DNA from: Nitrospirales bacterium
GTDB taxonomy: Bacteria; Nitrospirota; Nitrospiria; Nitrospirales; UBA8639
DNA: 64,000 nucleotides
Direction: 5' to 3'
Assembly (NCBI GenBank): GCA_029261355.1
Contig: JAJDBM010000058.1
Location: 186,001 to 250,000 of the forward strand
Each line of letters begins with the position of its first letter. Position 1 is the stretch's first letter. Below the pieces are notes generated by a model. The model saw nothing but the letters and a program-made list of their open reading frames with translations. It had not been told where the DNA came from and searched no databases. The position numbers were made by a program, and so were the translations under genes. Shown here in pieces: positions 12,664-40,680 of this stretch.

Positions 12664-13707
12664 ATGATTCTCCGTACCATCTTTTTGGTGGTGGGATTAG
12701 CTTCCGGAGCCGGTGTAGGGTTCACTGTTGGAGCAGGCGAAATCTTACATATACTGGTAGGAGCTGGAGTAGGGGCTGTCATTTGTGGTGTCATGTTTGG
12801 GGTGGAGTCGCGTCTTGTCGATGCGCCGCTGGCTCTGACTGTCGGAGGCGCGCTTGGGTTAAGTGTCGGCTTACTCGTGGGTGGACTTTTTGTCCACATG
12901 GCCGGTCTGATGCTTGATTCCTCCTCCCTTCTTGGTCACGTTGGGGGGCTTATGGCGTTACTTACGTTGCCGTACCTCGGGCTCATCGTTGGTATGCGAT
13001 TTGGGACAGAAAGTTTAGCCCTCGTGTTTTCCAATACCCAAGATTCACCGGGTGAGCAGGAGGTGAACCCCTCTGAATTTACACTCAAATTATTGGATAC
13101 TAGTGTGATCATTGATGGTCGTATTTCAGACTTATGCGATACGGGATTTATTGAGGGAACCTTGGTTGTTCCTCAATTTATTCTCTTGGAACTTCAACAT
13201 ATTTCCGACTCATCCGATGGCCTCAAGCGGGCACGTGGACGACGTGGGTTGGATATTTTAAATGGTATGCAAAAGATGACCAACATTAAAATTGATATCG
13301 TTGAAGATGACTTCCCGCATGTGAAAGAAGTGGATACGAAATTAGTTGAGTTGGCCAAAAAGGTTAACGCAAAAATTCTCACCAATGACTTAAACCTGAA
13401 TAAGGTGGCAGGTCTTCAGGGTGTGATTGTGCTCAATATCAATGAGCTCTGTAATGCGTTGAAGCCAGTGGTGCTTCCCGGCGAAACATTACGAGTTTTT
13501 GTGTTAAAGGAAGGCAAGGAAGCTGGACAAGGCATTGCATATCTTGATGATGGGACCATGGTGGTGGTTGACCATGCCAAGCGTGCCATAGGAAAGACTG
13601 TCGATGTCTTGGTGACGAGTGTCTTACAGACGAGTGCTGGTCGCATGATCTTTACGCGCCTCAAAGAGGAAACTGAACGCGAGGAGTTAACTTTCGCGGG
13701 TGTCTAA
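12664..13707 (+). CDS. membrane-anchored PIN-TRAM domain protein (YacL-like)
   Basis: A 347-residue protein with about four glycine-rich membrane helices (residues 2-115), then a PIN nuclease-like domain starting KLLDTSVIIDGRISDL (about 140) with the further acidic residues of PIN proteins (DLNLNKVAGLQG region near 245), and a C-terminal TRAM RNA-binding domain (about 275-335). This matches the conserved YacL family. PIN folds usually cut RNA; the physiological target of YacL proteins is not established. The ATG at 12664 has aaggag at a good distance; a GTG three codons earlier is possible. The stop overlaps ispD by eight bases, so it leads the ispD-ispF operon. Confidence 0.9.
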   Translation: MILRTIFLVVGLASGAGVGFTVGAGEILHILVGAGVGAVICGVMFGVESRLVDAPLALTVGGALGLSVGLLVGGLFVHMAGLMLDSSSLLGHVGGLMALLTLPYLGLIVGMRFGTESLALVFSNTQDSPGEQEVNPSEFTLKLLDTSVIIDGRISDLCDTGFIEGTLVVPQFILLELQHISDSSDGLKRARGRRGLDILNGMQKMTNIKIDIVEDDFPHVKEVDTKLVELAKKVNAKILTNDLNLNKVAGLQGVIVLNINELCNALKPVVLPGETLRVFVLKEGKEAGQGIAYLDDGTMVVVDHAKRAIGKTVDVLVTSVLQTSAGRMIFTRLKEETEREELTFAGV

Positions 13708-14410
13708 TCGTGTGGTTGCCGTCGTTCCCGCTGCTGGTCGTGGTGCGCGAATGGGAGGGAATATTCCAAAGCAATTTCTCTCTCTTGGTGATATTCCTAT
13801 CCTAGTCTATGCCCTTCGGACTCTTGAGTCTGTCCAATCCATCACTGATATTATCGTTGTCATTCCACAAGCTGATCAAGCCTTTTGCCGTGAAGACATT
13901 ATCCAACGTTATGGTATTCGGAAAGTGACGGATATTGTTGCGGGTGGTCTCAGACGACAAGATTCTGTCAGAAATGGTGTCATGGCCATTACCGAGACAC
14001 CAGCGCTTGTGGTTGTTCATGATGGGGTTCGTCCATTTGTGTCAAAAGAAATTGTGATGAATGCGGTACAGGTCGCGATGGAATCCGGAGCGGCACTCGT
14101 GGCCATTCCTATGAAGGATACGGTCAAACGAGTCAATCAAGAAGGATATGTGGAAGACACCTTAAATCGCGAAGACCTTTGGTTAGCCCAAACCCCCCAG
14201 GTATTTCGGTATTCATGGTTGAGGGAGGCTCATGAGTTGGCCGAGGCGCAAGACCTTGAGGTCACGGATGATGCGGGTCTTATTGAGCAACTTGGGTATC
14301 CCATTTCCATTGTGGAAGGGAGTGCTCACAATATTAAAATAACACGACCTGAGGATTTGGCATTGGGTGAGGCCATTTTGGCATGTCAGAAACTTGAAGG
14401 GGGCGAGTAA
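13700..14410 (+). CDS. ispD: 2-C-methyl-D-erythritol 4-phosphate cytidylyltransferase
   Basis: A 236-residue IspD, third step of the MEP isoprenoid pathway: CTP plus methylerythritol-P to CDP-methylerythritol. Seen: VVPAAGRGARMGGNIPKQFL (residues 8-27, CTP-binding loop), GGLRRQDSVRNG (about 75-86), VVHDGVRPFVS (about 96-106), AIPMKDTVKRV and TPQVFR. It starts at GTG inside the end of the PIN-TRAM gene and is followed within eight bases by ispF, so translation is probably coupled. The next enzyme, IspE, is not in this window. Confidence 0.95.
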   Translation: MSNRVVAVVPAAGRGARMGGNIPKQFLSLGDIPILVYALRTLESVQSITDIIVVIPQADQAFCREDIIQRYGIRKVTDIVAGGLRRQDSVRNGVMAITETPALVVVHDGVRPFVSKEIVMNAVQVAMESGAALVAIPMKDTVKRVNQEGYVEDTLNREDLWLAQTPQVFRYSWLREAHELAEAQDLEVTDDAGLIEQLGYPISIVEGSAHNIKITRPEDLALGEAILACQKLEGGE

Positions 14411-14417
14411 CGAGACT

Positions 14418-14891
14418 ATGCGTATTGGGCAAGGCTATGATATTCATCCCCTCAAAGAAGGGCGACCATTTATCCTCGGGGGTATTGAGATTGCTCATAC
14501 TCATGGGCTTGATGGTCATTCTGATGCTGATGCGTTAGTGCATTCGGTATGTGATGCCTTGCTTGGTGCAATGGGCGAAGGGGATTTGGGGAAACGGTAT
14601 CCGAGTTCTAATCCCGCATTTAAAGGACTTTCAAGCTTAACGATGCTACAAGATATTGTTGAATTACTCACGCAAAAGGGTTATCGGTTAGTAAATCTTG
14701 ATACGGTAATCATGGCACAGTCTCCAAAGCTCGGTTCCCATCTCGAGTCAATGGCGAAGAAGATGGCTGAAGTCCTCTGCGTTGACGTGACGCAAGTCAA
14801 TGTCAAAGTAAAAAGCGGTGAGGGAATCGGGATGATCGGTCGAAAAGAAGGTATTGCCACTCAAGCTGTTTGCCTCATTGACGAAATGTGA
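14418..14891 (+). CDS. ispF: 2-C-methyl-D-erythritol 2,4-cyclodiphosphate synthase
   Basis: A 157-residue IspF, exactly the usual size when the ATG at 14418 is used (an upstream open stretch inside ispD is ignored). The zinc ligands are in GYDIHPL (Asp and His near residues 8-10) and His42 in LDGHSDADALVHS; further blocks are GDLGKRYPSS, AQSPKLGSHLESM and GEGIGMIGRKEGI. It cyclises CDP-methylerythritol-2-phosphate in the MEP pathway and works as a trimer. It ends the PIN-TRAM/ispD/ispF operon; cysE follows after a gap of about 190 bases. Confidence 0.95.
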   Translation: MRIGQGYDIHPLKEGRPFILGGIEIAHTHGLDGHSDADALVHSVCDALLGAMGEGDLGKRYPSSNPAFKGLSSLTMLQDIVELLTQKGYRLVNLDTVIMAQSPKLGSHLESMAKKMAEVLCVDVTQVNVKVKSGEGIGMIGRKEGIATQAVCLIDEM

Positions 14892-15079
14892 AATCTCCCT
14901 TCATAATTAACCCGACAGAAATCATGCATTGCCTGTTGATGGAAGCTGTATGTTGCAGGCCTCTGCAGCAACGGTCAATTCTTTGCCGGAATGGCTGGCC
15001 ATTCAATGCGTGATGAAGAATGGGTAAAGTAGGTAAGGACCGAAGCCATTCGTATTCTTCTATTAGCTGAAACGTATGT

Positions 15080-15727
15080 ATGTTTAAAAATATTGCACAA
15101 GATTTACAGGCTGTGTTCGAGCGAGACCCTGCGGCCACCAATCGGTGGGAAGTGTTTCTCACCTATTCAGGCTTTCATGCACTCTTGGCGTACCGTTTGG
15201 CACATAAGCTTTGGATTCGGCGTATTCCATTTATTCCTCGATGCATCTCGCAGATTGCACGATGGTTGACTGGAATAGAAATTCACCCTGGTGCAATAAT
15301 TGGGAAAGGATTTTTCATCGACCATGGCATGGGGGTGGTGGTTGGGGAAACCACAGAAATTGGTGAATATGTGACACTCTTTCAAGGGGTCACATTGGGA
15401 GGAACAGGAAAAGAACGTGGAAAGCGGCACCCAACGCTTGGTAATCATGTTGTGGTGGGAGCCGGAGCAAAGGTGCTTGGCGGAATGACGATTGGGGACA
15501 ATGTGAAAATTGGGGCCAATGCCGTTGTGCTTCGTTCGGTGCCGCCCAATTCAACAGTCGTGGGGAATCCCGGACGAATAGTCAAATTTGAGGGGGAACG
15601 CATGCCTGAAGCCACGATGGATCATATCAATATTCCAGATCCTATCGCTGAGCGGTTTGAAGCCATGGAACGAGAGCTACTCGAGCTACGAAAGCAAGTA
15701 GATAATCCTGATAATAGAAATGGCTAG
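15080..15727 (+). CDS. cysE: serine O-acetyltransferase
   Basis: A 215-residue short-form serine acetyltransferase (EpsC/CysE), making O-acetylserine for cysteine synthesis from serine and acetyl-CoA. The N-terminal helical part ([30 protein letters not shown], split by normal family positions) leads into a left-handed beta-helix: [24 protein letters not shown] (about 67-90, with the catalytic His in IDHG), [17 protein letters not shown] and [19 protein letters not shown]. The final 40 residues are charged and helical. It is shorter than the E. coli enzyme because it lacks the long N-terminal hexamer domain, which is common in other phyla. It shares its strand with ispF but has its own gap. 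Confidence 0.93.
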
Positions 15728-15764
15728 ACTTTTAGTCTGTTATTGCCTGGGTAATTTGAGATCG

Positions 15765-16652
15765 TTAGGTCTTAGATGCTTGGAAGATAGTCTCGATCGA
15801 TTTGTTCAACGTCGTGCTGTACTCTTCTTCCGTTTGTTGCGCAAAGAGCCCTTCTGCTAAAGCGCGGGAGAAGCTGGCAATAATGCCCTTGTTGCGCGTG
15901 AGACGTTCGGTAGCTTCCTTTAGCGAGTACCCACCTGATAGGGCTACGACACGCAGGACGTTCGGGTGCTCGATACATTCGGAATAAAAATTGTCTGCTT
16001 CGGGTAGGGTAAGTTTCAGCATGACCTTCTGACTGGAATTAAGCCTATTCAAGTGGTTGAGCACCGCTGTTTTGAGTAATGCTTCGGCTTCAGCTTTCTG
16101 GGAGCAGTGAATATCTACTTCAGGTTCGATTATTGGAATGAGCCCTGCAGAAACAATATGTAAACCGATCTCGAACTGCTGATCGACAATGGCCTGTATG
16201 CCTAATGCATCGGCAGTCTTGATGACAGAGCGCATTTTTGTGCCGAATACATTGTGTTGTTTGGCACGTGCGAGCAGCGGGTCAAGGTCTGCAATCGGTT
16301 TCATTAATTGAACACCGTTGGCCTCGGTCGCTAGACCCTTGTCGACCTTCAAGAACGGCACAATCCGTTTGTCTTCCCATAGGAACTCAGCGACACCCTT
16401 ATTGCCAATTTTGCGATTGATTGTATCCTCGAACAAAATGGCGCCTAGGATGCGGTCGCCGTCAAAATTTGGATTGGTCATGATGCGTGTTCGCATCTCA
16501 TGGATTTTGGTGAACATCTCGTCATTGTTAGAGTATTCGTCGTCGCTGACGCCATATTGTTGGAGTACTTTTGGCGTGCTGCCACCGCTTTGATCGAGAG
16601 CCCCAATAAAACCGTCGTCTTTTTGAATCTTCATGAGTTGCTGTTCAAGCAT
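15765..16652 (-). CDS. fda: class I fructose-bisphosphate aldolase (bacterial Fda type)
   Basis: A 295-residue Schiff-base aldolase splitting or making fructose-1,6-bisphosphate. The start GFIGALDQSGGSTPK (about 14-28), FEDTINRKIGNKGV (about 74-87), PFLKVDKGLA and the Lys213 region VMLKLTLPE (likely imine-forming lysine) match the Staphylococcus Fda family. The ATG at 16652 has an AGGTGG site upstream; a GTG four codons earlier is an alternative. It is convergent with cysE (37 bases apart, no clear terminator). Functionally it pairs with the FBPase gene 3 kb away in sugar synthesis. Confidence 0.93.
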   Translation of the reverse strand: MLEQQLMKIQKDDGFIGALDQSGGSTPKVLQQYGVSDDEYSNNDEMFTKIHEMRTRIMTNPNFDGDRILGAILFEDTINRKIGNKGVAEFLWEDKRIVPFLKVDKGLATEANGVQLMKPIADLDPLLARAKQHNVFGTKMRSVIKTADALGIQAIVDQQFEIGLHIVSAGLIPIIEPEVDIHCSQKAEAEALLKTAVLNHLNRLNSSQKVMLKLTLPEADNFYSECIEHPNVLRVVALSGGYSLKEATERLTRNKGIIASFSRALAEGLFAQQTEEEYSTTLNKSIETIFQASKT

Positions 16653-18897: not shown

Positions 18898-20868
18898 ATG
18901 TCACACGTTAGGGGGACTATGAGCGTTCATTTTGCACATTCTTGTCTTCATCGTACTTGGTCTCAGGCTCGTTTCGTTCGCTTGATGATTGGTGTACTTG
19001 GTTTATTGGTGGGATGGTCAGAAATGATGTTGTCCCCGAGCCCTGTCTATGGAGAAACGGGAAGTGACTCGATTCATTTTGGTCGGTCATTGAATGAACA
19101 TATGCCAGGTGTATGTACGGAAGGGCCGTCGACTTCCCGTGTGGCGACTATGGGAAGTAATCCCTACACCAGTCAGTATCTGATTCTGGCGCTCCATTGT
19201 CGTTTGCATAATGATTCGCCAACAGCTCCAACGGGGTTAGTGAGTGTGACAACGGGTTCGCAAGTGACGTTGAGCTGGTTTCCTTCCATTCCCCAGGGAA
19301 AGGTGAAGTATTACGAAGTGTGGAGGACTGTGAATAATTTAGCAGAACTTCTTGGAAATTCCCCTACCACAAATTTTGTCGATGTTCCTCCAGGAAATCC
19401 CGAAAGCTTTCAATATCAGGTACGGGCTGTCGGTCAAGATGATCAACCGACGGCATATTCTAATGTGGTTACTCCGTCTTCCTCGACATTTCCTTTGACG
19501 GTGACGATGTCTGGTGATGGCCTAGGAAGTGTGGTGAGTACTCCAACGGGAGTCAGCTGTCAGAGTGGGACTTGCGTGACAGAGTTTTCAAGTGGAACAC
19601 CGGTGCAGTTAATTGCCACACCGAAAAGTGGGCATGTGTTTGTTGGGTGGAGTGGGGGAGGGTGTAGTGGCACCAGTCCATGCACGGTCATCCTCTCGGA
19701 AGCGAGGACCATCAATGCTTCCTTTAAGTCGTCTGCGACTCAACTCGTTCTCTTATCCGTGAAAAAGAACGGGGATGGGCGTGGCTCATTTATCAGTAAT
19801 CCTTTAGGTCAAAGCTGTGGGGAAACCTGCCTGTCGAACAATAAAACGTACGTCCATGGCACGACAATCACGTTTACGGCGAAACCCGGTTTAGATTCGG
19901 TTTTTGACGGATGGAGTGGAGGTGGGTGCAGTGGTATCGGCACATGTACGGTTATTCTCTCGCAAGTAACAAGTGTCATTGCCACATTCAAGCTTTCAGC
20001 CAATCCGCTCGTTCTCTTATCTGTGAAGAAGAACGGGGATGGGCGTGGCTCATTTATCAGTAACCCTTTAGGGCAAAGCTGTGGGGAAATCTGTCCGTCG
20101 AACAATAAAACGTACGTCCGTGGTACGACGGTTACATTTACAGCGAAACCTGCTGTAGGTTCGATCTTTGAGGGGTGGAGTGGAGACTGTACAGGGACCG
20201 ATTCCTGTGAGGTGACGATGGATACAACGAAGACGGTGACCGCAACCTTTATGGTCGCATCTAACCTGAGAACGGTGGTGTTACAAGATGGGCTGGAGGG
20301 GTATGCCGGGACTCGTGATACCTATGTCTATGCCTTTCCCGGGCATGACACGGTAAATTTTGGAACCCGCGACTATCTTCATGCGAATTTTCTCCAGGCT
20401 GGGAGTGGTAGGCAGTTCACGATGCTGACAAAATTTTCCGTATTTGAATCTGAAGGCGGTCCTATTCCTGATGGAACACCGATCGTGTCTGCGAGGGTAG
20501 CAGTCTATAAAGCCAGCGCATATAACTATCGCTATGGGGCGCATCGAGTTTTGGTGCCATGGGACGAAACAGAAGCGACGTGGAATTCGGCATTGACGGG
20601 ACGGACGTGGAGTGAAGGCGGAGGTCTGGGCCGTGGCACTGATATCGCAGTCACACCTGATGGCGAAGGAGGCGTGGGGTGGTCGCCTGGGTGGGTTGAA
20701 ATTGACGTGACGTCGGGGGTGCAAGCCATAGGCAATGGACAGCCCAACTATGGTTGGCATTTCGTGGGGATTGTGGGGAATGGGAATCTAAAGACGTTTC
20801 ATAGTCGAGAGTACCAAGTCGATCCGAGCTTGCGTCCGAAACTCATCGTGGTGACGGCCGACCCATGA
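18898..20868 (+). CDS. secreted repeat protein: FN3, three beta repeats, DNRLRE domain
   Basis: A 656-residue exported protein. After a signal peptide (hydrophobic core about 25-37, cleavage likely near VYGETG) comes an FN3 domain (about 108-192). Three repeats of about 85 residues follow (198-282, 283-370, 371-455), each with a GDGxGS start, paired Cys and a VFxGWSG block typical of divergent bacterial repeats of secreted proteins. Residues about 473-656 form a DNRLRE-like domain (DTYVYAFPGHDTVNFGT, LVPWDETEATWNSA, WVEIDVTSGVQA), seen in large extracellular proteins as a stalk or binding module. No enzyme site is visible. It precedes the diheme propeller gene by about 180 bases on the same strand and may share its transcript. 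An ATG at 18919 is an alternative start. Confidence 0.8.
   Translation: MSHVRGTMSVHFAHSCLHRTWSQARFVRLMIGVLGLLVGWSEMMLSPSPVYGETGSDSIHFGRSLNEHMPGVCTEGPSTSRVATMGSNPYTSQYLILALHCRLHNDSPTAPTGLVSVTTGSQVTLSWFPSIPQGKVKYYEVWRTVNNLAELLGNSPTTNFVDVPPGNPESFQYQVRAVGQDDQPTAYSNVVTPSSSTFPLTVTMSGDGLGSVVSTPTGVSCQSGTCVTEFSSGTPVQLIATPKSGHVFVGWSGGGCSGTSPCTVILSEARTINASFKSSATQLVLLSVKKNGDGRGSFISNPLGQSCGETCLSNNKTYVHGTTITFTAKPGLDSVFDGWSGGGCSGIGTCTVILSQVTSVIATFKLSANPLVLLSVKKNGDGRGSFISNPLGQSCGEICPSNNKTYVRGTTVTFTAKPAVGSIFEGWSGDCTGTDSCEVTMDTTKTVTATFMVASNLRTVVLQDGLEGYAGTRDTYVYAFPGHDTVNFGTRDYLHANFLQAGSGRQFTMLTKFSVFESEGGPIPDGTPIVSARVAVYKASAYNYRYGAHRVLVPWDETEATWNSALTGRTWSEGGGLGRGTDIAVTPDGEGGVGWSPGWVEIDVTSGVQAIGNGQPNYGWHFVGIVGNGNLKTFHSREYQVDPSLRPKLIVVTADP
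19744..20255 (+). repeat. two tandem 264-base units inside the secreted protein gene
   Basis: The units starting at 19744 and 20008 are nearly identical over their first 110 or so bases (same run through ggggatgggcgtggctcatt) and diverge towards the end. The period is 264 bases, 88 codons, so the frame is kept. An older, more diverged copy precedes them at about 19490. Confidence 0.85.
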
Positions 20869-21046
20869 GGTCAGAAGTGACACGAACGAATCGTCGAGTG
20901 AAGACACGAGCGAGTGGGGCGACGACAAGCAGTCGGTCAGTCCCTGTTTTTGAGGAAATTTGATTCATGTTTCATTGAATAGAGAAGGTCATATCACAGA
21001 CCCTGTTCTATCATTTATTTTTCTTACAGACCATGAGGTACGTCAT

Positions 21047-24000
21047 ATGAAAACTGTCAGTATTCTAGGGTTGGGGATTATAAGTTTTTGTCTGTTGGAT
21101 GTGTCGACGGCTCTAGCCGAAGACCCAATTGTGTATGCGCGGTGTGAGCGTACGACCGCGACGTATGAGTTGACGGGTGATGTGTCGGTAGCTGGGAACA
21201 CACGAACGGTCACGCGCCGCATGACGGGGTTGGATGTGTATGATGTCCTACCGGATGTCACCAATTTTCACTCAGGGTTTTCGGCGCCCTGTGATTTGGT
21301 CTTGCAATGTGAGGATGGATTAGAGGAAATTATTTATAATTGTTCGGCCAATTCGACAGATGATAAAGCCTGTGCAGCGTTGGATCCCGCGGTGTCGTTT
21401 GATGGCAAGACGATTGCTTTTTCTGTGTTTCACGGAAAGATAGAGCATAAGAAGGTAGGCAATGTGGCTGCTAGCGTGCTCGATCCGAATGCCGATAGGG
21501 CGTCACTGGGGTATCACAGCCTGCCGAATAAAAAGCTGAAGTCAGAAGGGGCGCACTTGCATTTTTATAACATCGAGACGGGACAACTCAATGTGCTCCC
21601 ATATGTGAAAGGGATTTACGATTCAGGCCCTGCCTTTCTCAGTCCGACTCGGGTGGCCTTTACCTCAACACGCGATAAGCATCGCAGCACAAAAGTTTGG
21701 CGCACGACGAGCAGTAAACCAGGGACCCGTATTTGGACCATGGATCTTGATGGGAAGAATCCTGACCTCGCCAGTCATCATTCGCTGTCACAGGAGCAGC
21801 ATCCCTATCTCTTAAAGAATGGACGTTTGGCCTATTCGAGCTGGCAGATTTTTGGTGGGCTGCCCTTTCGCCATACCAATGGGACCGCTGGTGGTTTTAC
21901 CACCATCACGAATCTCTTCCATATTTATACGCAAGACCCGGATGGCGCCGGGAACTTTGCTTTCTATGGACAACATAATGGGGGTGGGTTTAAAAGTAGT
22001 GCTGGCACCGCACATGATGCTGCGCATTTTCTGACGCAAACGAGTGATGAACGCGTTTGGTTTGCGGATTATTATCGTGGCAATAATAATGGGTTAGGGC
22101 TTGTGGTCGGGGTGATGCCTGAACCTGAGGGGCAAGAGGGAATCAACCCTCATGAAGCCACACGAATGAGCGATATGTATTTTCCGCGTGATGTGGTCAA
22201 TTTTTCAACGTGGACGTCCAATAGTGATAATATGGCGCAGATCATGCCCTCGCCAGCCTTGACACATGCCAGTTATACGGACCCGCTCCCTTTTGCGGGG
22301 AAAGTCGGTCATCCCGCCGCCTTGTCGAATAATGGGTTGATGGTGGCGTGGGGCAAAGGGCCCTGTAGTACGGTCGCCTCAAGTCGTGCGATTTTTGCAG
22401 AACTGGGAAGACCAGCTCCTCCGGCGACCGATGGGAGCGGGAATGGAGTAGCCATGAATCTGCTGACGTCACTCGAGATGGATACGCCGGGTTGTGATGT
22501 CGGGCTCTATCGCGCCACGGCCATTCCTTCGCAACATCCCAATGATCTCGCGATGATCGTGGATTCGCCTGATTGGCATGAAATTATGGGTCGAGCGGTG
22601 GTGTCGTATAGCGCCATCCATGGTGTGGCAGAACCTGTAACCATCCAACGTGCCGATCTCCGCGCCTCTCATGTGCAATTGGAAGCAGGCACACCCTTTG
22701 GTTTACTGGGGGCGGCGTCTATCACCGATCGTGAAACGCATCCACGGGGGGGGATTCAGTTTGCGGGAGAACTACAATTCAATCTTCAGGGCACTGATAC
22801 CATCGACTATACGGATGAGGATCTCTGTGGTGTTCGCATTTTGGGGGTCATGCCGAATCGGTTGAGACCCAAGACGATATATAACCAAATTTATGCGATT
22901 AACAATGTGGCCGGGGAGCGGGTCTCGATTCTCGGGGAGTTCCCGGTGCTCAATACAAGCGCAAATGGCACAAGAGTCCATGATTCAAGTGGGCATCCCG
23001 ATACGAGCTTTTTGGTCCGCATGCCGGCGAATACGCCCTATCTGATGCAGAGTATTGATTGTCAAGGGCGGACCTTGAATACCGATCAAACATGGCAACA
23101 TCTCCGGCCTGGAGAAGTTAAGACTTGCGGGGGCTGCCATGTGCATTCTCGCCCCTCACGGACCACCTTTGAGCAGACGGTTGCAGCCAGCCCCGCTTAT
23201 GCCATCCCTCACTTGGGGGAAGGAACGGTCCCGCTGTTAGCTGGGAAGACTAGTGAGACGACGGTGCGGACTCGGACTGTCCCGGGGTATGGACTGCAGG
23301 TGGATTTCAATCGTGATATTTTACCCATCTTTGAGCAGCGCTGTGCCTCGTGTCATAGTGACGCGCAGCCCGCGGCTGGGTTGGTTTTGAATCGCCCAGG
23401 GACGGAAAGTGCAAAAAAGACCGCAACACCTTCAACGTGGTGGTGCTTGGTGGCGGATGGTTCGCAAGCCTGTGCCGCGCCTGGTCAACAAATGATTACG
23501 AATGCGGGACCTCAGGATGTGAGTTTTCGTCGTCCACAGCTCACACGCTATATCCGAGCCTTTAATTCACGAGGCAGTTTATTGTATTGGAAGGCGGCAA
23601 ATGTCCGTACGGATAATCGGACGGACGCCTTTGACCCCACTGATATTAATTTTGGGACAGCCCATCCCACCACGATGACCCCGGACGAGCTAGGACTCTT
23701 GTCCCGGTGGATCGATCTGGGTTCACCTGGAGGCTTGGAAGAGTTGGTGGATACGCAAAAGCCGACTCTGCATTTGGCGACGTCCGGGAGCGGTGGGAGT
23801 CTCTCGGAGTTGAAAGTGGGCACCGTGGATCTTGGTAGCGGCATTGATGTGAATAGTCTGGTTGTGTGTGTTTTGCAGTCTAATAACCAGTGTGCCAATC
23901 TGGCGGGGCCAGCCAAATCGCATGGCGTGACGACGGTGTCGTTGGGTTCAGTGAGTGATGCTAACGTTGAAATTCTCGCGCAAGTCAAAGATCTTGCAGG

Positions 24001-24052
24001 TAATATGACGGAAGTTCGTCGGACTGCTCAGTGGTTTTTTAATCCCTCATAA
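21047..24052 (+). CDS. secreted beta-propeller diheme protein, hydrazine-synthase-alpha-like
   Basis: A 1001-residue exported protein from the ATG at 21047 (signal peptide ending STALAED; gaggt ribosome site). Residues about 30-500 contain TolB/PD40-like propeller repeats (VSFDGKTIAFSVFHGK, RIWTMDLDGKNP, HPYLLKNGRLAYSSW). A middle beta domain (about 520-680) leads to two c-type heme motifs, CGGCH (Cys694-His698) and CASCH (Cys766-His770, within DILPIFEQRCASCHS). A further beta domain closes the protein. This order resembles the alpha subunit of anammox hydrazine synthase and the wider protein family sharing its middle domain. Four residues after the first heme His is Arg702, not the Tyr that, as I recall, binds heme iron in true hydrazine synthase, and no beta/gamma subunits are near, so hydrazine synthesis is not claimed. 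Probably a periplasmic or outer-surface redox enzyme of unknown substrate. Confidence 0.8.
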   Translation: MKTVSILGLGIISFCLLDVSTALAEDPIVYARCERTTATYELTGDVSVAGNTRTVTRRMTGLDVYDVLPDVTNFHSGFSAPCDLVLQCEDGLEEIIYNCSANSTDDKACAALDPAVSFDGKTIAFSVFHGKIEHKKVGNVAASVLDPNADRASLGYHSLPNKKLKSEGAHLHFYNIETGQLNVLPYVKGIYDSGPAFLSPTRVAFTSTRDKHRSTKVWRTTSSKPGTRIWTMDLDGKNPDLASHHSLSQEQHPYLLKNGRLAYSSWQIFGGLPFRHTNGTAGGFTTITNLFHIYTQDPDGAGNFAFYGQHNGGGFKSSAGTAHDAAHFLTQTSDERVWFADYYRGNNNGLGLVVGVMPEPEGQEGINPHEATRMSDMYFPRDVVNFSTWTSNSDNMAQIMPSPALTHASYTDPLPFAGKVGHPAALSNNGLMVAWGKGPCSTVASSRAIFAELGRPAPPATDGSGNGVAMNLLTSLEMDTPGCDVGLYRATAIPSQHPNDLAMIVDSPDWHEIMGRAVVSYSAIHGVAEPVTIQRADLRASHVQLEAGTPFGLLGAASITDRETHPRGGIQFAGELQFNLQGTDTIDYTDEDLCGVRILGVMPNRLRPKTIYNQIYAINNVAGERVSILGEFPVLNTSANGTRVHDSSGHPDTSFLVRMPANTPYLMQSIDCQGRTLNTDQTWQHLRPGEVKTCGGCHVHSRPSRTTFEQTVAASPAYAIPHLGEGTVPLLAGKTSETTVRTRTVPGYGLQVDFNRDILPIFEQRCASCHSDAQPAAGLVLNRPGTESAKKTATPSTWWCLVADGSQACAAPGQQMITNAGPQDVSFRRPQLTRYIRAFNSRGSLLYWKAANVRTDNRTDAFDPTDINFGTAHPTTMTPDELGLLSRWIDLGSPGGLEELVDTQKPTLHLATSGSGGSLSELKVGTVDLGSGIDVNSLVVCVLQSNNQCANLAGPAKSHGVTTVSLGSVSDANVEILAQVKDLAGNMTEVRRTAQWFFNPS

Positions 24053-24059
24053 ACTTGCT

Positions 24060-24086
24060 GTCCCCGCCGCAACGAGCGGCGGGGAC
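24060..24086 (+). terminator. strong GC-rich hairpin after the diheme gene
   Basis: Perfect 11-base arms (gtccccgccgc and gcggcggggac) around a five-base loop, seven bases past the stop codon. Only short T clusters follow. It most likely ends the secreted-protein transcript. Confidence 0.75.
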
Positions 24087-30086: not shown

Positions 30087-31292
30087 TTAGATCTGGTCAT
30101 ACAGAGTTTTCGTCTGTTGAGCAATGGCAGCCCAACTAAAGTGCGCCTCAGCTCGTGTACGGCCAGCGATTGCGTATTGTCGACATTTGTCAGGGTTGGC
30201 CATGAGTTCATTAATGGCTGTGGCTAAATCTCTAGAGAATTTCTCTGGGTTGGCAGGTGCAAATGAAGGTGCTGGATTTTGTTCCAGAGGAACAAGAATT
30301 CCTGTTTCTCCATCCACGACAACCTCAGGGATCCCTCCAATTGATGATGCGACCACTGCGGTTTCACAAGCCATGGCCTCAAGGTTGATGATACCAAATG
30401 GTTCGTAGATTGAGGGACAGCAGAAAACAGAGGCGTGGGAATATAACTCTATGACCTGTGACTTCTCTACCATCTCTCGTATCCAGATCACGCCGCGTCT
30501 ATCTCTTGAAGCTTCCATGATGGCCAGCTGCATTTCAGCTTCGATCTCAGGGGTGTCTGGGGATCCGGCGCACAGGATGACTTGAAACGCAGGGTCGAAG
30601 TGTTTGATGGCTTGAACGAGATGGATGATCCCTTTCTGTCTGGTGATTCGCCCAACAAACAATACGTACGGTATCGAGGAGTCAATCCCATAGCGATGAA
30701 GTGCGTCGGTTGATGTCTGTTTTTGGTATTCCGTGAGATCAATGCCATTGTGGATGACGGAAATTTTTTCTTCTGAGAGGGAGAAATGTTGAAGGATATC
30801 CTTTTTTGTTCCCCGAGATACCGCTATGACGGCATCGGCCATTTCAATCGCAGTTCGTTCTACCCACAGAGAAAAGTCGTATCCACCAGCTAGCTGTTCT
30901 CGTTTCCAGGGGCGTAAGGGTTCGAGCGAATGCGTGGTGATGATAAGCGGAATTCCGTAATTCAACTTGGCCACGATACCTGCCATGTGGGTATACCAGG
31001 TATGACAATGTACATGGGTGGCATCAATTCCAAATGAATTGAAGTCAAGTCCTCGTTGAATGGACCCAAATCCTGATATGAGGGATTTGGGACATCCATA
31101 TTGACTTGAATCGAGTTCGAACCCACGGACGTTAAGATTTCCTTCAGTGACATTTTGATCGCCGAAACATCTCACTTCAACTTGCATAAGCTTGGCAAGT
31201 TCTCGACTTAGGTATTCGACGTGGACGCCTGCACCGCCATAATTATAGGGAGGAAATTCATTACTCAGGATCAGTGTTTTCATCGTATGCAT
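30087..31292 (-). CDS. glgM: GT4 glycogen synthase / maltose-1-phosphate synthase (GlgM type)
   Basis: A 401-residue GT-B glycosyltransferase of the actinobacterial-type glycogen synthase family. N-terminal loop NEFPPYNYGGAGVHVEYLSR; GIPLIITTHSLEPLRPWKR and the mid helix GGYDFSLWVERTAIEMADAV; nucleotide-binding half with FVGRITRQKGI, and the donor-site YEPFGIINLEAMACETAVVAS (about 325-345). The family transfers glucose from ADP-glucose either to glucan or to glucose-1-phosphate (making maltose-1-P for GlgE). No glgE is in the window, so direct glycogen synthesis with GlgC's product is the simpler reading; the symbol is provisional. The start has aaggaag upstream. It is downstream of the glgC-treY operon but separated by 353 bases. 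Confidence 0.85.
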   Translation of the reverse strand: MHTMKTLILSNEFPPYNYGGAGVHVEYLSRELAKLMQVEVRCFGDQNVTEGNLNVRGFELDSSQYGCPKSLISGFGSIQRGLDFNSFGIDATHVHCHTWYTHMAGIVAKLNYGIPLIITTHSLEPLRPWKREQLAGGYDFSLWVERTAIEMADAVIAVSRGTKKDILQHFSLSEEKISVIHNGIDLTEYQKQTSTDALHRYGIDSSIPYVLFVGRITRQKGIIHLVQAIKHFDPAFQVILCAGSPDTPEIEAEMQLAIMEASRDRRGVIWIREMVEKSQVIELYSHASVFCCPSIYEPFGIINLEAMACETAVVASSIGGIPEVVVDGETGILVPLEQNPAPSFAPANPEKFSRDLATAINELMANPDKCRQYAIAGRTRAEAHFSWAAIAQQTKTLYDQI

Positions 31293-31645
31293 GTGTCTTC
31301 CTTCTCACGTAGGCTGCGAATAGGCTTTATGGACGAGAATGGGGAGAAAAATCTCCAAAGAGAATGTTGTGTTATGGGAATGTCGAGACAGGAATGAACT
31401 CACCTGCTCATTGTTTGGGCACATGCAGGGGTGAGTCATCGAATCAGAGGGGTTTTAATTGATCGCCTCACGAGTCAGGGGGGTAATCGTACATGCTGAC
31501 ATTGAGGCCTCTATATTGTCCATCGTCCTTCAAACAACGAAAAAGAATATTTGAGTCATCAGATTACAGGAATTGGATGGAGAGGTGAGCCATGCAGACT
31601 GTTCCTCGATGTCCTCACAGGACTTATCACTATGAGGCTAGAAAA
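31293..31645. other. gap upstream of the GT4 synthase gene
   Basis: About 350 bases with no plausible gene on either strand. It should hold the promoter of the synthase gene, but I see no convincing -35/-10 pair, and no clear terminator for the preceding YtxH gene. Confidence 0.4.
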
Positions 31646-31963
31646 TTAATCGATCAGGCTTTCGTCAGGAGTGGTTTGAACTGACTTTTTCGTTGCGTCT
31701 ACGGCTGCTGTCACTCGAGACTTGGCATGTTTTACTTTTTCTTGAGCCTCTGCTGTTAATGTATGAAGAGATTCTTTTGTTTCAGTCGCCATCCCTGAAA
31801 ATTCATCTTGGGCTGTTTTGGCTCCTCGCACGATTCGGTCTCTCAGTGTATTTCCGGGTTCAGGTGTCATCAGTAAAGCTGCTCCTGCTCCAAGAATGAC
31901 TCCCGAAATAAAGACAAATGTGTTGACCCAACTTGAATCGTCTGAGTAATCTTGATGGTCCAT
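31646..31963 (-). CDS. YtxH-domain protein
   Basis: A 105-residue protein using the ATG at 31963 (MDHQDYSDDS); longer upstream frame is mostly the preceding gene read out of frame. One membrane helix (about residues 12-30, FVFISGVILGAGAALL) followed by the YtxH hallmark MTPEPGNTLRDRI and a charged, amphipathic helical tail rich in Ala, Lys and Glu. YtxH proteins are small stress-associated membrane proteins of unknown mechanism in many bacteria. It is the last gene of the lapA-glgC-treY operon, 25 bases after the small gene before it. A similar protein lies at 47.3 kb. Confidence 0.8.
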   Translation of the reverse strand: MDHQDYSDDSSWVNTFVFISGVILGAGAALLMTPEPGNTLRDRIVRGAKTAQDEFSGMATETKESLHTLTAEAQEKVKHAKSRVTAAVDATKKSVQTTPDESLID

Positions 31964-31988
31964 CCCTGTTATCTCCTTGTAGAACAAA

Positions 31989-32246
31989 TTATCTGTGTGT
32001 TTTGTGTTGCTTCGTGCTCGCGAGTGAGGTGACCGCACTTCCCAGTAACACGCCTGCTCCGAAGACGAGGCTGTAGGCAAGGCCAGTTCGTAATTCCGGC
32101 CAACTCTCCAAGACTCTTCTCCAGAGAGGAGCTCCCGTAGGAAAGTGCACATGTCCTTCCCATCCCAAATTAGCCTGTTTAAATGGCTGATCAATGCCAT
32201 TATCTTCATGGTGACGCTGCTCACGGTTGTGTTGTAAGGTTGTCAT
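31989..32246 (-). CDS. small single-span membrane protein coupled to treY
   Basis: Unrecognised 85-residue protein. Its ATG overlaps the treY stop codon (ATGA at 32243-32246), a strong sign of translational coupling. The N-terminal 45 residues are polar with many His and Trp; residues about 55-75 (LAYSLVFGAGVLLGSAVTSL) form one membrane helix of the small-residue, glycine-zipper kind; a short basic tail ends it. The pattern is like YtxH proteins in reverse order, so it may pair with the YtxH protein encoded directly downstream. No function is known. Confidence 0.65.
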   Translation of the reverse strand: MTTLQHNREQRHHEDNGIDQPFKQANLGWEGHVHFPTGAPLWRRVLESWPELRTGLAYSLVFGAGVLLGSAVTSLASTKQHKTHR

Positions 32247-35152
32247 GTGGCCCTCTCTAATAATGCGATCGGAAAGTGATGAAAGACCTTCGCTAACGGT
32301 AATATAGCTTTTTCATGCCGCGGAGTCGATGTCAGGGTTTCTCCTGTGAATATATTGGTCAATTGGACGCCAGTGAATTCCGGTGGAAGCACAAGATTAC
32401 TCTCCTCCCATAGATCATTTCCAATGGGCCATTGATTTGGCCCCTGATTCATGCTTGAGATAAACCGTGGGATCACCGTCACGGCTGCCTGTCCCTCTTC
32501 AATTCTACCAAACGCACAGACATGTGGCGACCTTGGACCTTCGGTCTCAATCGGGACGAATTGTCCATTCATGAATAATGAAGCATGTTGTTTGCGGAAA
32601 TTCAATGCCATGGTGGTGGTCCAGAGTTTTATTTGGCCATTATGTGGATGGTCGAGCAGTTCTCGAATGAAGGACATTCGTTCTTGATGGTGTTGAGCGG
32701 CTTGGAGATGGGCCAATGCTTGTCGATAGTCCTCATAGTGAATTGGTCGGCGATTATCGGGGTCAACTAAATGAAAATCCCACAATTCGGTCCCTTGGTA
32801 AAAATCTGGAATTCCTGGTGCGGTGACTTTGATGAGGACTTGAGAGAGTGAATTGACCATTCCAAATTGTGCAACTTTCTGTTGAAAAGGCCGAAAATCT
32901 TTCAGAAATGTTCTGGAACGCTTTGGGTGTAAGATATTGATGATGAATGCCCGAGTTGCGGCTTCGTAGGTTTCATTGGGATTCAGCCAACTTGAGTGTA
33001 CTTTCGCTTCACGAAGGGCTTTTGTCATATATTCTTGGATACGTAAGGAAAAGTGTTCACGTGCCTCGTCTGTTTCGATCTCTGTCAGCGGCCAACAGCC
33101 AAGAATAGTTTGGTAGAGGAAATACTCCTCATTGAGATCGGGGATGCTTTGTTCGTCGATCATACTTTTGGCTTTTTTATTCAGCTGTCGCCAACGACTG
33201 ATCCGTTTTCGCCATTCTTGAGGAAGCTCAGAGAGGACATTGAGCCGAGCACGCACATCTTCTCCGCGCTTCGTGTCGTGGGTAGCTGTCGTGGAAAGAC
33301 TATGGGGAAAGGTGTCTCTGCGTACCGACATCTGTTCATAAAAATGAGAGAGGGAGATGCCAAATTGCTCGGGTTCACCTCCAACTTCATTCAAGGACAG
33401 TAACCGGTTGTATGTATAAAAGACGGTGTCTTCTACACCTTTGGCCATGACTGGGCTCGTGGTTTGTTGAAACTTCATCGCAAAGCTATTGACATCCCGC
33501 CAATCAATGCGTGATTCATCAAAGGGGACTTTGAGGAGAAGGTCACGAATGAAGTCAAACACTAAACTGCTGATGGCTGGATTTCGTCTCTTGGCACGAG
33601 CTGCCGCTAAATGGATGTAGATTCGGTCGCGGTCAGCTACTTCCTCACTTGGATCAAATGTTGCGTAAGTCCGATACACGGGAAAGCTGGCAATGATTTC
33701 GCGAACGGCATGTACCAGACTGTTGAGGGTAAAGTCTCGAGACCGGCGATTCCGTTCAGAGAGGAGACTGAGCTGATGGCCAAGTGAATTAATCTCACTC
33801 GACATGGCGCTACTCATAATCACTGTTTTGGCATGATAGATCAGGTCTTCGTATGCTCCTGTGGTCTTGGTAAAGCGATGGTAGAGGGCGTCGAATTTTT
33901 TAGCATGTCGTGTGTCAACAAAAAGATTATTGAGCAGGGCTAAAAAGTCGTATCCCGTCGTGCCATGACATGGCCAATCAGTACTGAGGGCTTCAGACGT
34001 ACCGAGAATTTTTTCAACCACCATAAATATAGATCGGTGCTTCTCATCACCTTGAAGCCCAAGTTCCTTTAAGGCCCATGATTGCCATTGTGCCAGATAG
34101 CCTTTGGGATCATATAATCCATCGATGTGGTCGATACGAAGTCCAGTGACGGCTCCCGATCGAAGAAGTCCGAACACACATTGATGAAATTGAGTGAAGA
34201 CATCAGATTCTTCCATTCGTATCGCCGCAAGCTGATTAATATCAAAGAACCGTCGATAATTGATCTCTTCAGCCGCAACTCGCCAATAGGCTAAACGGTA
34301 GGCTTGATCGCTGACTAAGGCATCTAGCTGGTCAAAGCTTTGGTGGACACCTTTGACTCCATTCAGAATGTGAATATTTTCCAGAAGGAATTGATCGATT
34401 GCTTGATGCTCTTCGCAGAGAGTTGCTAAGCGGCGTTGGATCACATCTTTTTCACGGTACCGCACCGCAATACGTTCTGGGTCGTTTTCGTTCCTCGAGG
34501 GGAGGTGGGATAATGCCGTGATGATGCTTTGAAATTCTTGCAGAGAGGGATCGTCTGGACTCAGTGACTCCCTGAGACTCTCTTCGCGGTAGGCGAGAAT
34601 CAGCGACCAGGTTGAAGGGTCAATCGGAAGATGATGTTCATAGTATTGTAGGAAAAACTGACCATCTGTAAAGGCCAGAGAAATTTCCTGATTTTCTAAT
34701 GCAATGCCGTATTGCTCGCCTAAAATTGGGAGTAGGACTTTATTCTTGAGTTCTGATTTGACGGGATTCCAGTTAATATCAAATATTTTGGCATTTTTTG
34801 AGCTTGGCCCATTTTCTAATACGTCTTGCCACCAGGGATTTGCGGACTTATCAATTCCCATGTGATTAGGAACTACATCGAGGATTTGCCCGATATGATG
34901 ATCTTTTAATGCCTGAGCATATTGCTGGTACGCTAATTCATCTCCAAGTTCGGGATTGATGGTTGTTGGATCGATCACATCATATCCGTGAGAGCTTCCT
35001 GGTAAAGCTTTAAGGTAGGGAGAGGCATAGCACGTGGTGATGCCTAGGTCGTGAAGGTAGGGGATCAGCTTCGCAGCATCTTTGAACGTAAACGAGTAGT
35101 TGAATTGGAGTCGATAGGTCGAGATCGGGATGCGGCGATCTGGTATCGGCAT
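32243..35152 (-). CDS. treY: malto-oligosyltrehalose synthase
   Basis: A 969-residue GH13 enzyme that turns the reducing end of a glucan chain into a trehalosyl unit by intramolecular transglycosylation. Begins PISTYRLQFNYSFTFKDAAKLIPYL, then DVVPNHMGI, the nucleophile region GLRIDHIDGLYDPKGYL, the acid MVVEKILGTSE and the third acid TATHDTKRGEDVRARL. C-terminal GIPDFYQGTELWDFHLVDPDNRRP is typical of the family. Its length is somewhat above that of common TreY. The gene starts 13 bases after glgC and is coupled to the small gene behind it. Its product is the substrate of TreZ, encoded at 43.0-44.9 kb on the same strand but in a separate unit. Confidence 0.95.
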   Translation of the reverse strand: MPIPDRRIPISTYRLQFNYSFTFKDAAKLIPYLHDLGITTCYASPYLKALPGSSHGYDVIDPTTINPELGDELAYQQYAQALKDHHIGQILDVVPNHMGIDKSANPWWQDVLENGPSSKNAKIFDINWNPVKSELKNKVLLPILGEQYGIALENQEISLAFTDGQFFLQYYEHHLPIDPSTWSLILAYREESLRESLSPDDPSLQEFQSIITALSHLPSRNENDPERIAVRYREKDVIQRRLATLCEEHQAIDQFLLENIHILNGVKGVHQSFDQLDALVSDQAYRLAYWRVAAEEINYRRFFDINQLAAIRMEESDVFTQFHQCVFGLLRSGAVTGLRIDHIDGLYDPKGYLAQWQSWALKELGLQGDEKHRSIFMVVEKILGTSEALSTDWPCHGTTGYDFLALLNNLFVDTRHAKKFDALYHRFTKTTGAYEDLIYHAKTVIMSSAMSSEINSLGHQLSLLSERNRRSRDFTLNSLVHAVREIIASFPVYRTYATFDPSEEVADRDRIYIHLAAARAKRRNPAISSLVFDFIRDLLLKVPFDESRIDWRDVNSFAMKFQQTTSPVMAKGVEDTVFYTYNRLLSLNEVGGEPEQFGISLSHFYEQMSVRRDTFPHSLSTTATHDTKRGEDVRARLNVLSELPQEWRKRISRWRQLNKKAKSMIDEQSIPDLNEEYFLYQTILGCWPLTEIETDEAREHFSLRIQEYMTKALREAKVHSSWLNPNETYEAATRAFIINILHPKRSRTFLKDFRPFQQKVAQFGMVNSLSQVLIKVTAPGIPDFYQGTELWDFHLVDPDNRRPIHYEDYRQALAHLQAAQHHQERMSFIRELLDHPHNGQIKLWTTTMALNFRKQHASLFMNGQFVPIETEGPRSPHVCAFGRIEEGQAAVTVIPRFISSMNQGPNQWPIGNDLWEESNLVLPPEFTGVQLTNIFTGETLTSTPRHEKAILPLAKVFHHFPIALLERAT

Positions 35153-35165
35153 AGATTATAGAAGG

Positions 35166-36455
35166 TTAGGGAGTGTTGATAGGATCAACCGCACGACCAC
35201 CGTACGATTGGCCTCGAGGCAGCACAATTAATCCTGATTTCCCCACAGTGCTTACAGCGGAGTTCTTCGGATTATCAAATCCGTACTCTGTGCCAGCAGG
35301 AATCACATTGAACCGGTCAGCGATCACACGACGTAATCGGCATTTCGGGCCAATAATGGTCCCATCAAGAATGACACATTCTTCGATATGGGAGCCTGCA
35401 CCAATGCGGACGTTGCGTCCAATGAGGGAGCGTTTGATCGTGGCATTCACGACCAGACTGCCTTGTCCAACCATGGCGTCATCCACTTGGGTGCGCACGA
35501 GGCTTGCGACGGGTTCGAGGGATGCATCGGTTTGAATCGGCCAATTCACATTTCGAAGGTCAAAAATTGGGGTTTCCCCTAGTACATCCATATTGGCTTG
35601 CCAATAGGCATCGATGGTCCCCACATCACGCCAGTAGCCCCATTCTTCATAGGGATGGATGCCGGGTACAACATTCTTCATAAAGTCATAGGCCAATACG
35701 CTGTGCGATTTGCTCAGTGCTGGGATAATATCTTTTCCAAAATCATGTGTGCCTGGTTCACTGGCATCTTGTTCGAGTGCTTGGATTAAGGTATCCACAT
35801 TGAAAATGTAATTCCCCATTGAGCTGTAGGCCATCTCCGGATTGGTCGGCATGGGTTTTGGGGATTTGGGTTTTTCCTCAAAGCCGATGATTCGTTGCTC
35901 ATCATTCACTTCCATAATCCCAAAACCTTTTGCGGCCTGTAGAGGCACGGGGAGAGCAGCGACGGTTACATCAGCTTGATTGTCCAAGTGGAATTGAATC
36001 ATTTGCCGAATATCCATTCGGTAAATATGATCAGCTCCAAATACCGCCACGAGTCCTGGGGCAAAATCTCGAATCAAGTTGATGTTTTGATAAATGGCAT
36101 CGGCTGTGCCTTCGTACCATTTTCCTCGTCCCTTCATTTGGGGAGGAACAACGGTGATGAATGATTGACGGTTCGGCCCACCGCTTCGCCAGGCTCGACG
36201 AAGGTGCTCGATAAGGGATTGGGAGCGGTATTGAACCAAGACATACATAGCCAGGACGCCAGAATTAAGAAAGTTACTTAAGACGAAGTCTGTGATACGA
36301 TAGGTTCCAGCAAATGGAACAGCTGGTTTACTGCGTTGTTCGGTGAGGGGCATGAGGCGTTCCCCTTTTCCTCCAGCCATGATCATGGCTAAGACGCGTT
36401 GGGAAACGCGTTCACGCTGATGAGGGCGTGACTTTGTTCTGGGTTCTTGTTTCAT
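35166..36455 (-). CDS. glgC: glucose-1-phosphate adenylyltransferase
   Basis: A 429-residue ADP-glucose pyrophosphorylase, the committed and regulated step of bacterial glycogen synthesis. Seen: AMIMAGGKGERLMPLTEQRSK (about 24-44), GTYRITDFVLSN, GKGKWYEGTADAIYQ-type region (RGKWYEGTADAI), FGADHIYRMD, GFEEKPK and HDFGKDIIP; the C-terminal left-handed helix carries VIADRFNVIPAGTEYG. The start ATG overlaps the stop of the lapA-like gene by four bases, so translation is coupled. Allosteric control, usual for GlgC, cannot be read from the sequence. It sits in one operon with treY, linking ADP-glucose supply to trehalose output. Confidence 0.95.
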   Translation of the reverse strand: MKQEPRTKSRPHQRERVSQRVLAMIMAGGKGERLMPLTEQRSKPAVPFAGTYRITDFVLSNFLNSGVLAMYVLVQYRSQSLIEHLRRAWRSGGPNRQSFITVVPPQMKGRGKWYEGTADAIYQNINLIRDFAPGLVAVFGADHIYRMDIRQMIQFHLDNQADVTVAALPVPLQAAKGFGIMEVNDEQRIIGFEEKPKSPKPMPTNPEMAYSSMGNYIFNVDTLIQALEQDASEPGTHDFGKDIIPALSKSHSVLAYDFMKNVVPGIHPYEEWGYWRDVGTIDAYWQANMDVLGETPIFDLRNVNWPIQTDASLEPVASLVRTQVDDAMVGQGSLVVNATIKRSLIGRNVRIGAGSHIEECVILDGTIIGPKCRLRRVIADRFNVIPAGTEYGFDNPKNSAVSTVGKSGLIVLPRGQSYGGRAVDPINTP

Positions 36456-36742
36456 AATGACTTTGTGTAGGCCTGTGATTGTTTTGATGTTGGTAAGGCT
36501 TGCTTTAAGGTTTCAATTTCTTTGGATTGTTGAGCGATCATTCGACTTTTTTTCATTTGTGCAGGTAGTGAGGCTAAGAGGCTAATGATGACTCCCAATG
36601 CTAGCGTGGTCAAGAGGACAATGACCAATGAACCTTGAAACGTCCAAGCAAAAAAGTAAATGGTAATTTCACTGGCATTTTGCAATGAAAACGCAACGGC
36701 CAAAAAGACGATAAGCAAGGCAGCGATGAGGGCAAATGGCAT
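36452..36742 (-). CDS. LapA-domain (DUF1049) small membrane protein
   Basis: A 96-residue protein with two membrane helices (about residues 3-20 and 39-60) framing the conserved SLQNASEITIYFFAW segment of the LapA domain, and a short coiled-coil-like cytoplasmic tail (QQSKEIETLKQAL). In E. coli LapA works with LapB in controlling lipopolysaccharide synthesis; many phyla have small LapA-like proteins without lapB nearby, as here. The ATG at 36742 has aaggag upstream; a longer frame reaches into the glgB promoter and is ignored. It is the first gene of the glgC operon and is divergent from glgB. Confidence 0.85.
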   Translation of the reverse strand: MPFALIAALLIVFLAVAFSLQNASEITIYFFAWTFQGSLVIVLLTTLALGVIISLLASLPAQMKKSRMIAQQSKEIETLKQALPTSKQSQAYTKSL

Positions 36743-36770
36743 GATTGAAGGAGAATGTCCACAGTCAAAT

Positions 36771-36798
36771 TTGGAATTAATACTCAGTCGTCTATAAT
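36771..36798 (+). promoter_or_regulatory. predicted glgB promoter, probably giving a leaderless mRNA
   Basis: TTGGAA (36771-36776), a 16-base spacer and a perfect TATAAT (36793-36798). The glgB ATG at 36807 lies eight bases past the -10 box, where transcription should begin, and no ribosome site is present. Confidence 0.65.
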
Positions 36799-36806
36799 TA
36801 TTTACC

Positions 36807-39020: not shown

Positions 39021-39375
39021 TTCCTACCCACATTTAATTACTCAGCCTTTGAATTAACACTGCTGAATCTCAACATTTCATTCGGTTTTTCCTCGTGTTT
39101 TCCATTTACGTACCTGTTAGTGGAAAAGGGACCTCTATGGAAGGAGACCTCACTCAAATCCCCTAGGTTCGTAGACACTTTTCGAGAGTGAGATCGAAGT
39201 CATTTTACATTGAAATTCTTCATGATTTTATGAATTAAAGATCTGGTACCCGTTATGCCGAACCTATACGTATATTACACCTCACACAGGTCTGTCCCAA
39301 GACCCTGAGGGTTGCTACGTAATAGTCATCTTGCAATCTGATCTTATCAATCGTGCGGGTTATTGAGGGTTTTTT
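39021..39375. other. gap after glgB
   Basis: About 350 bases without a plausible gene. A weak stem (gaccctgagggt, near 39300) is seen; no clear terminator or promoter was recognised. Confidence 0.4.
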
Positions 39376-40326: not shown

Positions 40327-40680
40327 CAGCCAATGTGCGCAGGGATTGTGAAGGTAAGAATTTAGGGCCCTTCAAAAGTTCAACTTTTCCGGGCGATTGC
40401 GGCGTCACCCTCGTGCTCAACTTCTCATGTCTCCCCCTATATCTTGGAGTATTGCACGGGGAGATTTCTTGTACTCATGAAAGCAGCTGGTTTGATGAGG
40501 GGTCTTTAAGTCGTCAGGGTCTGACTGGAAAATAATAAGAGAATCCTTGTGAGTCTTGCGTTGAATTTTTCCTAATTTGAGCCTAACGCTGATTCTTTGC
40601 GAAATGGCAAAATGCTCGATTTTGTCCAAATTCGCAGACTAGCGTTTGTTTGCCTCTTTTCGGTGGCGAGGGGGGTTACT
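40327..40680. other. gap after the DHH gene
   Basis: About 350 bases between convergent genes. A small stem (aaaagttcaactttt, near 40374-40388) lies soon after the DHH gene and could assist termination. No gene is supportable. Confidence 0.4.

Follow-up and report, generated by a model that had tools for sequence, protein, structure and literature searches.

In hydrazine synthase (HZS), the CXXCH histidine of heme alphaI binds zinc together with Cys303, and the heme iron is ligated by Tyr591 (PMC12758564, PMC12607021). Non-anammox homologues of the alpha subunit without this tyrosine have already been published (PMC12758564), and the superfamily is therefore known. The focus of that paper is on homologues that lie beside a fused beta-gamma gene, in Planctomycetota, Desulfobacterota and some other groups, and its main text mentions neither the hosts of the subfamily described here nor exosortases. 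Two further systems are relevant: the exosortase-A (XrtA/PEP-CTERM) exopolysaccharide loci (PMC1569441), and surface proteins with DNRLRE (CBM96) domains and InlB-B repeats. Nothing relevant was found in the literature on a link between exosortases and HZS-alpha-like proteins, or on DNRLRE proteins together with cytochrome c.

The window, that is, the whole stretch of 64,000 nucleotides that was analysed, carries two adjacent genes on one strand separated by 178 bp. The first encodes P0001, a DNRLRE protein, and the second, P0002, a diheme protein, in the order and orientation given by the original prediction. The features are as follows.

18898..20868, plus strand: P0001 coding sequence, 656 aa (domain searches; signal segment by eye)
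19489..20253, plus strand: three InlB-B-type repeats of P0001, residues ~198-452 (PF18998, E 1.3e-24)
20317..20850, plus strand: DNRLRE domain of P0001, residues 474-651 (NF033679, 67.5 bits, cut-off 34)
21047..24052, plus strand: P0002 coding sequence, 1001 aa, predicted secreted diheme c-type cytochrome with the HZS-alpha fold (searches and model)
21047..21118, plus strand: Sec-type signal peptide of P0002, residues 1-24 (MKTVSILGLGIISFCLLDVSTALA/ED; by eye, conserved in orthologues)
21119..22615, plus strand: TolB-like beta-propeller of P0002, residues ~25-523 (VIA-align matches to TolB over 18-523)
23126..23146, plus strand: heme-I motif C694-G-G-C697-H698-V-H700, counterpart of heme alphaI (alignments)
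23342..23356, plus strand: heme-II motif C766-A-S-C769-H770, counterpart of heme alphaII (alignments)
23663-23665, plus strand: His873 of P0002, candidate distal heme-II ligand (alignment)
23753..24049, plus strand: C-terminal beta-sandwich of P0002, residues ~903-1001, probably Ig-like (model secondary structure)
24060..24086, plus strand: GC-rich hairpin with an 11-bp perfect stem and loop AACGA, just past the P0002 stop (folding, genome scan)

Like the published "HZS_alpha domain-containing proteins" (PMC12758564), P0002 has the HZS-alpha fold, lacks the Tyr591 ligand and occurs in a non-anammox bacterium. Unlike theirs, its subfamily, which is found in Nitrospirota, Pseudomonadota and Myxococcota, has no fused beta-gamma neighbour and shows links to surface-sorting systems. 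What is new is a distinct subfamily that has apparently been transferred between distant bacteria, two nitrifier-associated lineages among them, and that is tied to surface sorting and exopolysaccharide loci. The pair had been proposed as undescribed, a term that fits this subfamily and not the superfamily, since homologues without the tyrosine were already in print.

Fold and heme sites of P0002

The start of P0002 is best taken as ATG 21047, as in its 86% identical orthologue, in preference to the mechanical start TTG 20960, and secretion was judged by eye. The protein matches the HZS_alpha family PF18582 at 44.3 bits (Pfam gathering cut-off 26.6). An AlphaFold2 model built from a 57-sequence alignment (pLDDT 86.6, pTM 0.87) gave chain A of Kuenenia hydrazine synthase alpha (5c2v_A) as its best PDB match in Foldseek (E 2.8e-23). 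VIA-align placed residues 25-902 of the model on residues 56-799 of that chain (Z 30.0, 619 residues, 3.5 A), from the propeller through the middle domain to the C-terminal heme domain. The next-best structural matches were TolB propellers covering only residues ~18-523; thus, the resemblance to HZS alpha spans all three domains. An HZS-alpha-like propeller protein with two hemes had been predicted, with superposition on HZS alpha as the proposed check; this match bears out the fold, and the two CXXCH motifs are in keeping with the two hemes. The last ~100 residues of the model form an extra beta-sandwich beyond the HZS-alpha domains.

P0002 and HzsA (PDB 5C2V; NF052339) have in common the propeller, the middle domain with heme I and the class-I-cytochrome domain with heme II, CXXCH at two equivalent places, and residues Trp683, Tyr588, Tyr835, Trp848 and Trp888. 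P0002 reads CGGCH (residues 694-698) and CASCH (766-770), and both CXXCH motifs are invariant among the 57 aligned homologues.

Compared to HzsA, P0002 shows several distinct features. First, the motif CxGCHxGSY is present in all 20 anammox alpha subunits examined, whereas P0002 reads CGGCHVHSR at the Tyr591 site and shares CxGCHxHS, without the tyrosine, with its kin. The tight subfamily has Arg, Lys or Gln at the Tyr591 position, compared to Tyr in 6/6 HZS. Two residues past the CXXCH histidine stands another histidine (His700 in P0002, replacing Gly589) in 64 of 64 family members, compared to Gly in 6/6 HZS. Second, the zinc ligand Cys303 aligns with His310, a histidine conserved in the tight subfamily. 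Third, the invariance of ten cysteines is confined to the tight subfamily and does not extend to HZS. By alignment they suggest five disulfides, which is in keeping with an extracellular protein. Fourth, the C-terminal Ig-like domain is additional. The propeller residues His252, His327, His422 and Tyr342/343 are also absent from HZS and are kept in almost all members of the wider family.

At heme II, a column in which 38 of 43 outer members have Met has His (His873) in all 21 members of the tight subfamily. As judged by alignment, bis-His ligation of heme II is probable in this subfamily; phmmer aligns His873 with alphaHis772 of HZS, and MAFFT does not.

That P0002 is not a hydrazine synthase is well supported. 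This assignment was ruled out by the absence of Tyr591, by a score of 50.7 bits against the HZS-alpha equivalog NF052339 (cut-off 800), and by the lack of beta or gamma subunit genes in the flanks read within the window. The neighbours there are housekeeping and glycogen/trehalose genes, and the three CCP_MauG proteins of the source genome all lie on other contigs. The loss of the heme-binding tyrosine and the want of beta/gamma partners had been noticed in the original prediction, as had their bearing on function; together they support a chemistry other than that of HZS. To our knowledge, there is no biochemistry for family members outside anammox bacteria. Anammox cannot be concluded from a nitrifier gene annotated as "HZS_alpha".

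Distribution and surface setting of the subfamily

In a single scan that covered 84,980 species genomes, 78 loci homologous to P0002 were found. The tight subfamily (49-86% identity) is found in one other Nitrospirales metagenome-assembled genome (locus L025), Nitrosomonas marina and related metagenome-assembled genomes with several copies each, Thalassotalea, Colwellia, Sedimenticola, Lysobacterales and myxobacteria; these hosts are mostly marine bacteria. The outer family (25-33% identity) extends to Acidobacteria, Planctomycetes, Verrucomicrobia and others. Among 60 close relatives, the gene was found in none apart from the source genome. In a maximum-likelihood tree (quick method), HZS alpha forms its own clade with support 100, and P0002 and the L025 protein branch within proteobacterial sequences, beside three copies from Nitrosomonas marina Nm71 (SH-aLRT 93, just under the starred threshold). 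This nesting, the absence from relatives and the GC content of the gene (0.53 vs 0.46 for the window) make horizontal acquisition of P0002 likely, and the subfamily as a whole has apparently spread in this way.

Nitrosomonas marina has four copies each in Nm71 (L027, L029, L030, L034) and Nm22 (L035, L042-L044), and several of its contigs end within the diheme gene, which suggests that near-identical repeats broke the assembly. In one Lysobacterales genome, a tight-subfamily gene (L031:9956-13063, plus strand) and an outer-family gene (13264-16203, minus strand) stand tail to tail. The source genome itself has a second HZS_alpha-domain diheme protein (contig C40, ~17-20 kb; L018:7213-10389), which is very divergent (CGGCHQHE and CSACH; 22% identity). 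Other Nitrospirota families of the same class (L019-L024) have separate propeller proteins of ~815 aa that contain either two or three CXXCH motifs (CNGCHSPRRG..) and are remote from HZS and the P0002 subfamily alike.

The evidence for a surface-type setting comes from the orthologues. GlyGly-CTERM scored over the cut-off in the Colwellia orthologue (L046) and MYXO-CTERM in two myxobacterial loci (L040 and L038). The Thalassotalea orthologues have long Pro-Glu-rich linkers and tails that are GlyGly-like by eye; identification of these tails as GlyGly-CTERM was not retained, as they matched no family. Some tight-subfamily orthologues have cadherin/Ig or beta-helix-like extensions, and C-terminal fusions in the wider family include Big_9/cadherin, Laminin_G and carboxypeptidase-regulatory domains.

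Orthologues of P0002 also sit inside or near exosortase-A loci (TIGR03098, TIGR03099, TIGR03100, PrsT) of the kind described previously (PMC1569441). In Sedimenticola, the diheme gene lies within such a locus, between the TIGR03098 ligase and TIGR03099 decarboxylase genes, with a 4 bp overlap with the former. In the Thalassotalea loci, PrsT and homologues of TIGR03098/03099/03100 flank the diheme gene, and an exosortase lies ~20 kb away on the same contig; in Colwellia, this distance is ~26 kb, again on one contig. One further gammaproteobacterial locus has TIGR03098/99 homologues. Neighbourhood clustering showed an exosortase-A group recurring in four loci. An exosortase was found over the cut-off in 12 of 18 carrier genomes, the source genome included, a count that stands without a base rate; the two exosortases of the source genome are both encoded elsewhere than in the window. 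Collectively, the sorting tails and exosortase-A loci of the orthologues agree with the extracellular location that had been proposed. In contrast to the proteins of exosortase-A loci (PMC1569441), P0002 lacks a PEP-CTERM tail and lies outside any such locus: NCBIfam models and the window neighbours revealed neither a sorting tail nor an exosortase-A locus, and no exosortase-A linkage was seen in the Nitrosomonas loci either.

Separately, short C-terminal tails (IFKTGFE, VFEDGFE, IFADNFE and similar) occur in L031, L039, L054, L056, L062, L068 and L073, and one of the same type ends a beta-helix gene (L031:8376-9767). This tail, seen in Lysobacterales and related members, resembles a tag for sorting or secretion and matched no NCBIfam model.

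Proposed role

These results favor the reading, with a probability of about 0.65, that P0002 is a diheme oxidoreductase of the cell surface or exopolysaccharide matrix, built on the HZS-alpha fold and belonging to a horizontally spread, non-HZS subfamily. P0002 would be exported through Sec, its hemes would be attached in the periplasm, and it would be held at the surface or in the matrix, in other lineages by sorting tags. The protein would be stabilised by disulfides, with a TolB-like propeller, a middle domain carrying heme I and a class-I-cytochrome-like domain carrying heme II. Heme I, in a pocket between the middle domain and the propeller, would be the reaction site, with the conventional CXXCH histidine and the invariant second histidine. 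Heme II, probably bis-His, would exchange electrons one at a time with an external partner, and the propeller residues His252, His327, His422 and Tyr342/343 may help to form the pocket or bind a metal. A more specific version is improbable: a matrix-tethered heme enzyme with a His/His heme I and a propeller-histidine metal site that acts on exopolysaccharide or exosortase-sorted proteins by oxidation or cross-linking, and that was transferred between ammonia-oxidising Nitrosomonas and Nitrospirales. If true, such an enzyme would be new to biochemistry.

A surface cytochrome serving purely in electron transfer or redox sensing, with both hemes six-coordinate and low-spin and no catalysis, is an unlikely alternative. 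It could, for example, relay electrons across the matrix to solids or to partner cells. The two histidines of the heme-I motif (698 and 700), the probable bis-His heme II, and the surface tags and exopolysaccharide loci of the orthologues are all consistent with it. However, a protein of 1001 aa with only two hemes would conduct electrons poorly, and the conserved propeller residues together with the HZS-like active-site fold resemble a substrate pocket.

As a compact, conserved subfamily with a clear cellular setting, these proteins offer a practical route to the role of the HZS-alpha scaffold beyond hydrazine, and they bear on the origin of hydrazine synthase and the role of its non-anammox relatives. 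Cultivable carriers include Colwellia psychrerythraea GAB14E, Thalassotalea sp. ND16A and Nitrosomonas marina Nm22/Nm71.

The neighbouring gene and the remaining alternatives

P0001 comprises, in order, an N-terminal signal or hydrophobic segment (judged by eye, as was secretion), an fn3-like region, the three InlB-B-type repeats and the C-terminal DNRLRE (CBM96-like) domain. NF033679, PF18998 and the CBM96 family PF24517 all matched over their cut-offs, as in other DNRLRE/CBM96 and InlB-B surface proteins, and two of the repeats form a 264-nt direct repeat that is 80% identical (19636-19899 / 19900-20163). Of the scaffold described in the original prediction, the repeats and DNRLRE domain are secure; the FN3 part is a weak match (E 0.013, below the Pfam cut-off). 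The combination is an ordinary one, and only its neighbour is unusual. P0001 is best explained as a separate secreted protein of the adhesin or carbohydrate-binding type. Two fn3/InlB-repeat proteins resembling it lie 5-10 kb from an exosortase in the source genome.

The original prediction joined P0001 and P0002 in one module, and it is doubtful that P0001 serves as a physical stalk presenting the diheme protein, with the two forming one functional unit. The genes are adjacent on one strand with a hairpin after the second, in other lineages the diheme protein itself carries fused matrix- or adhesion-type extensions, and the adjacency is repeated in L025, where the genomic surroundings differ, a mild sign that both genes moved as a pair. 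In a search for P0001 homologues in the 25 closest loci, however, only L025 had one beside the diheme gene. This homologue has two DNRLRE domains and two in-frame stops, and may thus be decaying or mis-assembled, while the diheme gene next to it is intact. Moreover, repeats of the P0001 type are common in Nitrospirales that lack the diheme gene (25 of 60 relatives, compared to one of 60, the source genome itself, for the diheme gene), and a 178 bp gap parts the two genes. Clustering of the tight subfamily, and then of all 78 loci, gave only the exosortase-A group and tandem copies, with no DNRLRE partner family; a recurrent pairing was thus rejected. That the pair entered the aldolase-truA slot in a single conserved insertion was rejected as well: the slot is syntenic in relatives with other genes inside, and in the other carrier genome (G671) it lacks the pair, which is located elsewhere. 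For these reasons, the genes are not regarded as an established module. The neighbourhood survey did not find the two families recurring as a pair beyond one further Nitrospirales genome, and the case for a two-gene module is weak; a physical partnership of P0001 with P0002 is possible.

The hairpin is very stable (-27.5 kcal/mol, z -4.7) and the sole such hairpin in the genome. The strong terminator assigned to this site is only partly right, because the stem is real but no T-tract directly follows it and the intrinsic-terminator scan does not list it; classification as an intrinsic terminator was not retained.

A nitrogen-cycle enzyme with HZS-like chemistry on hydroxylamine or ammonia in a nitrifier-type host is very improbable for P0002. 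The fold is that of HZS alpha, and the closest kin outside Nitrospirales are in Nitrosomonas marina. Nevertheless, the heme-I changes (no Tyr591, His for Gly589), the low equivalog score and the lack of beta/gamma genes nearby speak against it, and the subfamily is also found in heterotrophic Colwelliaceae, Lysobacterales and myxobacteria. That P0002 is a recently acquired gene without function or in decay, as its absence from the 60 relatives and deviating GC content might indicate, is scarcely credible given 1001 open codons, a dN/dS of ~0.15 against the L025 orthologue that reveals purifying selection, and retention of all heme and subfamily cysteines; this selection and the orthologue alignment also rule out a chance reading frame.

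Upstream of the pair, the 2.2 kb between the aldolase gene and P0001 (16665-18897) contains no convincing gene, and several relatives hold a Glu/Leu dehydrogenase-type gene in the matching slot. Farther downstream, the window contains a glycogen/trehalose cluster at 30087-47210 with GlgA, TreY, GlgC, GlgB, TreZ and GlgX.
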